From positions 1 through 41,819 of the forward strand of contig JABCYU010000004.1 in the NCBI GenBank assembly GCA_013290045.1: a DNA stretch of 41,819 nucleotides, written 5' to 3'. The position numbers were made by a program, and so were the translations under genes. The notes under the pieces were generated by a model. That model made no database searches, was not told the DNA's origin, and worked only from the letters and a program-made list of their open reading frames with translations. Of this stretch, positions 39,801 through 41,160 are shown piece after piece (the stretch's first letter is position 1; every line of letters begins with the position of its first letter). The DNA comes from Methanobacteriota archaeon. Its GTDB lineage: Archaea; Thermoplasmatota; Thermoplasmata; Lutacidiplasmatales; UBA184.

Positions 39801-40286
39801 ATGGTCGTCAAGCGCCAGTGTTCGTTCTGTGCCGACGAGATCGAGCCCGGGACCGGGACGATGTTCGTCAAGCGCGACGGCAGTATCTTCCACTTCTGCT
39901 CCTCCTCCTGCCGAAAGCAGCAGCTCCACCTCGGTCGGGTCGGTCACCGCTTGAAATGGACCCGAGCCCACTCGATCAAGGTCGCCGCCGAGCAGAGCCA
40001 CGCCACCGCGGCGAAGAAGGCGGCGGCGGCCGCCGCGGCGAGGGCCGAGAGCGCCCCCGCCCCATCGAAGGGTCGCGGAGGAAAGGCGAGGTCGACCTCC
40101 CCGCCCGCCCCGACCCCGGCGGCCAGCCCTCCGGTCAGCCCGGCGCCGGCGGCCGCTGAGTCCCCGGCCCCGGCGAAAGCCGCCTCGGCCGACGAGGGTC
40201 CGGCGGCGGCCGAGCCGAAGCCCAAACCGAAGGCGGCGAAGGCGAAGTCGAAGCCGGCGGACGCCGCCCCCTCGAAATCGACGTAG
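39801..40286 (+). CDS. rpl24e: Ribosomal protein L24e with long Ala/Pro/Lys-rich C-terminal extension
   Basis: CSFCADEIEPGTGTMFVKRDGSIFHFCSSSCRKQQLHLGRVGHRLKWT (zinc ribbon) followed by about 100 aa low complexity. Confidence 0.92.
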   Translation: MVVKRQCSFCADEIEPGTGTMFVKRDGSIFHFCSSSCRKQQLHLGRVGHRLKWTRAHSIKVAAEQSHATAAKKAAAAAAARAESAPAPSKGRGGKARSTSPPAPTPAASPPVSPAPAAAESPAPAKAASADEGPAAAEPKPKPKAAKAKSKPADAAPSKST

Positions 40287-40363: not shown

Positions 40364-40645
40364 GTGAGCGCGCGCGCCGACGCCTCGGAGGACCCCGCTT
40401 GGTGTACGGTCTCCGATCTCGCGGAGTACGCGTACTGTCCTAGGGCGCACTGGTACCGTCATCACCCTCCCGAAGGCGCACCGGACCCCGTTTCCCAGCG
40501 GGCGCAGGGGTTGGGCCGGCGATACCACGCTCATCGAGCCGGGGCGATGGAGGCTCGCGATCGTCACGTCGGTCCGTGGGTCGCGGCGTTGGCGATCTCC
40601 GTTCTCGCGCTGGCCGCGGCGATCTACCTCGGGGTGGGAACCTGA
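40364..40645 (+). CDS. Cas4/RecB-like nuclease, N-terminal fragment ending in a TM helix
   Basis: VSDLAEYAYCPRAHWYRHHPPEGAP...GLGRRYHAHRAGA (Cas4 first Cys and motif I His), then TM WVAALAISVLALAAAIYLGVGT. Confidence 0.65.
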   Translation: MSARADASEDPAWCTVSDLAEYAYCPRAHWYRHHPPEGAPDPVSQRAQGLGRRYHAHRAGAMEARDRHVGPWVAALAISVLALAAAIYLGVGT

Positions 40646-41160
40646 ACGCCGGCGATCTCGCGCTCCTCGTGATCGGGCTCGTCGCCCTCGGAACGATCGG
40701 CGCGTCGGCGTGGGTCCTGTGGACGGTGAGCGAAGAGCGCCGGTACGGGGCGCTGCTCCGCGTCGACCCGGGATCCGGATCGTCGCCGCCGCTCCGCTCG
40801 CCGCGCTGGCGGCTGAGCGGAACGCCGGACGAGCTTCGCCAACTCCGCGACGGGGCGATCGTTCCGGTCGAGTGGAAGCGACGGGCCGCTCCGCCGGGAG
40901 GCCCGTTCCTCTCGCATCGCGTCCAGGTGTGGGCGTACTGCCTGCTCGTCGAGGAGACGTGGGGACGAGCCCCTCCGTTCGGGGTCGTGCGCTACGGCGA
41001 CGGGGTCGAGTTCCGGGTACCGTGGGATCGCGACGCCTACACCCGGGTCATCGCCGTCCGGCGCGCCGTGGCCGCGCGGTACGATGGCGAGGCGACGCCC
41101 AGCGCCGGCCGCTGCTCCGGGTGCGCGTATCGGAACGCGTGCGACGTGCGAGCCGCGTGA
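40642..41160 (+). CDS. Cas4/RecB-like nuclease, C-terminal fragment starting with a TM helix
   Basis: TM LALLVIGLVALGTIGASAWVLWTV; LSGTPDELRQL (Asp), IVPVEWKRR (ExK), HRVQVWAYCLLVEE (QxxxY), CSGCAYRNAC (three Cys). Start shown as CTG overlapping the upstream TGA (CTGA); the alternative is a -1 frameshift fusion. Confidence 0.65.
   Translation: MNAGDLALLVIGLVALGTIGASAWVLWTVSEERRYGALLRVDPGSGSSPPLRSPRWRLSGTPDELRQLRDGAIVPVEWKRRAAPPGGPFLSHRVQVWAYCLLVEETWGRAPPFGVVRYGDGVEFRVPWDRDAYTRVIAVRRAVAARYDGEATPSAGRCSGCAYRNACDVRAA

Follow-up and report, generated by a model that had tools for sequence, protein, structure and literature searches.

A split, probably membrane-anchored Cas4-like nuclease encoded by overlapping genes in a family of Thermoplasmatota

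The window analyzed here, a 41,819-nucleotide stretch with a GC content of 71%, belongs to a 2.2-Mb archaeal draft genome that consists of 183 contigs and is 89.5% complete. Behind the ribosomal protein genes L7Ae, S28e and L24e lie two open reading frames, ORF1 and ORF2, which a first-pass annotation had read as one set of nuclease motifs divided between two genes, with a transmembrane (TM) helix on each side of the break. We located every element of that reading, namely the first Cys, the motif I His and the terminal TM helix of ORF1, and the TM helix, Asp, ExK, QxxxY and three Cys residues of ORF2, each ORF having a single hydrophobic helix adjacent to the break. The features of the locus are the following.

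40364..40645, + strand: ORF1 (chain A), GTG to TGA, 93 amino acids, with an N-terminal Cas4-like part and a C-terminal TM helix; it matches positions 2-45 of the TIGR00372 profile, has a positionally conserved ortholog in 78 loci and shows dN/dS values of 0.12-0.52.
40436..40438, + strand: Cys25 of ORF1 (YCPR), corresponding to the first Fe-S Cys in nucleases of the Cas4 type; 77 of the 78 aligned orthologs have Cys here, and the remaining row has a gap.
40526..40528, + strand: His55 of ORF1 (GRRYHAH), the motif I His; His in 77 of 78 orthologs.
40580..40636, + strand: TM helix of ORF1, residues 73-91, mean Kyte-Doolittle hydropathy 2.47; the C-terminal helix is above the threshold in 78 of 78 orthologs.
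40642..40645, + strand: the CTGA start/stop overlap (junction sequence ggaacCTGAac), composed of the ORF1 stop TGA (40643-40645) and the likely ORF2 start CTG (40642-40644), as suggested by ATGA in the closest relative, L085, and by start-codon statistics.
40642..41160, + strand: ORF2 (chain B), 172 amino acids if started at CTG, with its stop at position 41160; after a TM helix come the catalytic core and the three Fe-S Cys residues; it matches positions 57-179 of TIGR00372 and, with 32.7 bits, PDDEXK_1, and 81 of the 103 family genomes have an ortholog.
40663..40719, + strand: TM helix of ORF2, residues 8-26, mean Kyte-Doolittle hydropathy 2.23; above the threshold in 72 of 78 orthologs.
40828..40830, + strand: Asp63 of ORF2, motif II, GxPD (here GTPD); Asp in 78 of 78 orthologs.
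40870..40878, + strand: E77-W-K79 of ORF2 (VEWK), motif III, ExK; both residues kept in all 78 orthologs.
40924..40938, + strand: QVWAY of ORF2 (Q95/Y99), motif IV, QxxxY; Q and Y kept in all 78 orthologs.
41113..41142, + strand: CSGCAYRNAC of ORF2 (C158/C161/C167), the three C-terminal Fe-S Cys residues; all three in 78 of 78 orthologs.

The NCBIfam profile of Cas4, TIGR00372, is matched over positions 2-45 by ORF1 (E 1e-4, 21.8 bits) and over positions 57-179 by ORF2 (E 2e-13, 50.8 bits), against a curated cut-off of 65; the pair therefore represents complementary halves of one profile. The match of ORF2 to Pfam PDDEXK_1 (PF12705) exceeds its curated cut-off of 22 bits, and Cas4 models of PADLOC match both ORFs, so the Cas4-like similarity noticed initially is borne out by profile comparison. 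Across the two chains, the motif I His, the motif II Asp, ExK and QxxxY follow each other in the order that is characteristic of the Cas4 family, and the Cys pattern of this family, predicted to hold an Fe-S cluster, is reproduced, with one N-terminal Cys (77/78) and three C-terminal ones (78/78). Judging from these profiles and motifs, we consider the homology of ORF1 and ORF2 to Cas4 to be real, with one complete nuclease set spread over two ORFs as originally proposed. Two other groups of nucleases come close. The PF12705 (RecB/AddB-like) nucleases share the motif set, and ORF2 passes their Pfam cut-off, but the protein described here is predicted to be membrane-anchored and to consist of two chains, and no helicase partner was noted alongside. 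DruK and other PD-(D/E)XK defense nucleases represented in PADLOC yield a weaker match to ORF2 (44.4 bits), whereas the Cas4 profiles score better (50.8 bits) and match both halves.

The split is a stable character of the archaeal family to which the window belongs. ORF2 is matched in genomes of all seven genera of the family, and in each of the 78 readable orthologs, that is, those with both parts legible, the gene is interrupted at the identical place. The first-pass annotation had taken an uninterrupted ORF in relatives as the sign of a sequencing error. Distant relatives do possess such an ORF (see below), which is what an indel that interrupted an intact gene in the present assembly would predict, but this does not hold for the close relatives; given that all 78 readable orthologs from the seven genera are split alike, sequencing error is ruled out as the cause of the split, and we assign practically no weight to an assembly indel. 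Another possibility is that the nuclease was broken in the ancestor of the family and persists as a decaying pair of pseudogenes. The approximately 20% of the family genomes that lack an ORF2 match, many of them incomplete, are compatible with ongoing loss, but an alignment over both chains shows that the catalytic and Fe-S residues are kept in 77-78 of the 78 orthologs, and the dN/dS values of the 22 close pairs printed are well below 1 (0.12-0.52 for ORF1 and 0.12-0.40 for ORF2), which makes decay very improbable. As gauged by these substitution ratios, both ORFs are under purifying selection. The gene order TyrRS, L7Ae, S28e, L24e, ORF1, ORF2, followed on the opposite strand by a methyltransferase gene, recurs among the 8 genus members checked, with the exception of L040, in which TyrRS was not found; all 8 keep the location next to the ribosomal genes. 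The ribosomal protein L24e encoded in the window (39801-40286) has a long C-terminal tail rich in Ala, Pro and Lys.

The TM segments of both chains were called from Kyte-Doolittle hydropathy, with no dedicated predictor, and the helix of ORF2 falls below the threshold in 6 of the 78 orthologs. Over the 78 loci, K+R residues number 4.3 in the 20 amino acids that precede the ORF1 helix and 4.6 in the 20 that follow the ORF2 helix, whereas the few residues facing the loop include hardly any. From this pattern, the positive-inside rule predicts that both nuclease parts are cytoplasmic and that the break is situated in the external loop, in agreement with the initial suggestion of a membrane hairpin with both halves in the cytoplasm.

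For the CTGA sequence at the junction, two options had been put forward: an overlap of the ORF1 stop with an ORF2 start, or a -1 frameshift that joins the frames. The register between ORF1 and ORF2 is identical in 77 of the 78 loci and is the one that a -1 shift would join, and single-ORF relatives show that a fused protein is viable, as would be expected if a programmed frameshift produced one polypeptide with a membrane hairpin. However, 4-nt start/stop overlaps predict the same register, and the junction shows a strong excess of start codons: in 73 of the 77 common-register loci, the ORF2 frame contains ATG, GTG or TTG at a distance of -22 to +2 nt from the ORF1 stop, compared to 2/77 for the same count in the unused frame, 8/77 in the adjacent upstream stretch and 16/77 in the next one. 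A start at -1 and a start elsewhere in the stretch tend to replace each other, the latter being present in 36 of the 40 loci without a start at -1 and missing in 24 of the 37 loci with one (Fisher p 9e-7, a value that overstates independence because the loci are related). Moreover, the junction sequence is not conserved among the family loci, none of the family junctions was found to contain an X-XXY-YYZ slippery heptamer, and in a second split lineage (see below) the ORF2 of locus L106 begins past the ORF1 stop in a different register. Together, these observations render a programmed frameshift improbable; start enrichment, the lack of a slippery heptamer and the ATGA of L085 favor, at the level of sequence, two chains with translation coupled through the start/stop overlap, so that the first of the two original options is retained and the second is disfavored.

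The start of ORF2 in the window itself requires comment. The closest relative, L085 (70% identical), has gggctATGAacgcc where the window has gggaacCTGAacgcc; ATGA in the former corresponds to CTGA in the latter, which points to CTG, in place of ATG, as the most likely start of ORF2. An alternative start is the GTG located 26 nt 3' of the ORF1 stop. At the overlap, the window itself offers only CTG, and three further loci also have no ATG, GTG or TTG there. In L089, the single off-register locus, a GTGA overlap is kept and an apparent 1-nt indel follows immediately. Shine-Dalgarno motifs were considered as support for the ORF2 start and set aside, the signal being weak (11/77 compared to 1 and 5 in the control stretches). 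Short gene overlaps support coupled translation in archaea (PMC6728339, PMC10666635), and subunits of heteromeric complexes are enriched among such pairs (PMC10666635). The overlaps in the family, 4-nt ATGA, GTGA or TTGA or slightly longer ones, resemble the termination-reinitiation pairs of Haloferax and E. coli described in these studies and would likewise join two parts of one complex; unlike those pairs, which encode separate subunits, they appear to connect the two halves of a single ancestral fold that was severed at a membrane hairpin, and the overlap in the window uses CTG.

In other families of the same class and phylum, the gene is a single ORF. All hydrophobic helices of the single-ORF proteins, about two, four or eight in number, fall within the stretch that separates the motif I His from the motif II Asp, and protein length increases accordingly, from ~270-312 amino acids with two helices, through ~320-370 with three or four, to 506-580 with eight; counts of three are probably a threshold effect. 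TIGR00372 matches all 52 single-ORF proteins scanned (E<=0.001), and the scores of three single-ORF orthologs (82.9, 72.8 and 83.5 bits) exceed the cut-off of 65. A profile search of genome contigs yielded 153 confirmed relatives, and among the titles of the best 80 are Thermoplasmata, Euryarchaeota, Methanomassiliicoccales, DHVE2 and Aciduliprofundum, with two labeled only 'archaeon'. The AlphaFold model of one single-ORF ortholog, L203 (pLDDT 89.5), consists of long helices followed by a nuclease core, and its best PDB matches are the Cas4 structures 8d3l, 4ic1 and 7mi4, with Dna2 and MGME1 lower in the list, so that the predicted fold of this protein is Cas4-like. A viral origin was rejected: the single-ORF profile search of viral contigs confirmed no relative, and the viral fold matches are general Cas4/RecB-like proteins. 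Eight helices between the nuclease motifs are present in the single ORFs of loci L049 (G053), L109 (G106) and L110 (G082); in L109, the TM region of the profile gives partial internal matches, suggestive of a duplication of hairpins.

Given that the distant relatives are single ORFs, we infer that the split state in the window results from gene fission. A similar arrangement is found in lineage f35 of another class (loci L102-L106 and L114), where ORF1 ends and ORF2 starts with a TM helix at the corresponding point and the overlaps are ATGA, TTGA or ATAG, apart from L106, in which ORF2 begins after the ORF1 stop. In L102, L103 and L104, the ORF1 stop lies in ATAG and is closely preceded by a GGTGA-like stretch; since sister loci have ATGA and TTGA, ATA may by analogy serve as the ORF2 start in these three. 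A tree of 53 rows places the two split groups apart, each with good support, and sets f35 beside a single-ORF protein with two TM helices. A single origin of both split lineages was therefore considered and not adopted, given that the best tree separates them, although one clade is still compatible with the data under the AU test (p 0.25); the tree favors two fissions.

Combining these lines of evidence, we consider a two-chain, membrane-anchored Cas4-like nuclease to be the probable anatomy encoded at the locus; the first-pass proposal of a split, membrane-anchored nuclease is upheld by the complementary profile halves, the conserved split and the conserved residues. ORF1 and ORF2 would be halves of one PD-(D/E)XK, Fe-S DNA nuclease derived by fission from an ancestral single gene, whose product would have had its nuclease fold interrupted, after the motif I His and ahead of the motif II Asp, by one or more membrane-spanning hairpins. 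Fission in the short outside loop of the hairpin would leave each chain with one TM helix and the nuclease parts in the cytoplasm. A single mRNA would give rise to both chains through termination-reinitiation at the overlap, and the chains would pair in the membrane, reconstituting a single active site and a single Fe-S site of four Cys residues. The split form would thus be a naturally occurring enzyme whose active site is put together where two chains join in the membrane. It would also illustrate clearly how overlapping genes can maintain a gene fission.

Cas4 is a soluble partner in CRISPR adaptation that also occurs as a solo gene without a known role. A CRISPR-associated Cas4 is encoded together with cas1 and cas2. 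The first-pass annotation had seen no CRISPR locus, and consistent with this, there is no cas gene near ORF1 and ORF2 and no Cas1 in the 89.5% complete assembly; across the family, Cas1 is present in 19 of the 103 genomes compared to 81 with ORF2. The nuclease is therefore a "solo" Cas4 that is not tied to CRISPR adaptation. It shares the catalytic motifs, their order and the 1+3 Cys pattern with the Cas4 family (TIGR00372; CAS-Cas4 and solo-Cas4; PMC5704561), the single-ORF relatives pass the family cut-off, and the nearest solved structures are those of Cas4; it differs in the TM helices between motifs I and II, in being encoded by two genes and in the absence of Cas1 from the genome. The text of the main Cas4 survey (PMC5704561) contains no membrane form, and no description of a membrane-embedded Cas4 was found in the literature searched, which mostly lay outside subscription papers and thus leaves novelty unproven.

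The neighborhoods of the single-ORF genes on genome contigs offer hints of function. In 23 loci, the gene directly upstream encodes a TPD-family protein (PF14811, CDIN1-like; e.g. L170 and L192; gap 45-105 nt), and in 21 loci, it encodes an LTD-PLD protein (e.g. L164 and L225; gap 23-444 nt) that is predicted to be secreted and membrane-anchored and has a C-terminal hydrophobic segment; these loci are related, so the counts are not independent, and no single-ORF locus has both neighbors. In the window's family, TPD is encoded but not adjacent to the split nuclease, and LTD-PLD was not found in the 37 family genomes searched. As functional clues for the split nuclease, these conserved neighbors were accordingly set aside: the links are hints that may not carry over to it.

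Our best guess is that the nuclease cuts DNA at the membrane, either incoming DNA or DNA handled in cell maintenance. In the proposed mechanism, it would most likely act on the inner side of the membrane and cut DNA there; DNA that enters the cell is a tentative example of its substrate. Alternatively, a two-chain complex of the same anatomy could act in cell maintenance, that is, repair or chromosome processing at the membrane, a role to which we give appreciable, if less than even, credence. Consistent with this alternative are the conserved place behind L7Ae-S28e-L24e in the 8 genus members, the frequent location of the single-ORF relatives directly behind a TPD-family gene, the presence of TPD in 35 of the 41 relatives searched, this genome included, and the vertical inheritance of most solo-Cas4 genes (Hudaiberdiev et al. 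2017; PMC5704561), but the 21 loci with the LTD-PLD gene directly upstream point instead to DNA at or outside the envelope. The phylum-wide membrane-tethered form in Thermoplasmatota suggests a role of solo Cas4 at the cell envelope. With considerable reserve, we further propose a phylum-wide, hitherto undescribed class of membrane-embedded Cas4 proteins, with hairpins between motifs I and II, that would process DNA at the membrane together with TPD-family or secreted LTD-PLD proteins. Fission at the hairpin loop would have occurred twice in this class, each time giving a nuclease of two chains that assemble in the membrane. Separately from the split nuclease, genomes of the family encode a second, more distant Cas4-like protein of ~270 amino acids with the motif LTPHDLVxYFxCP (L243-L245, in G000:C11, G001:C2 and G029:C10), which in the window's genome is partial at a contig end.
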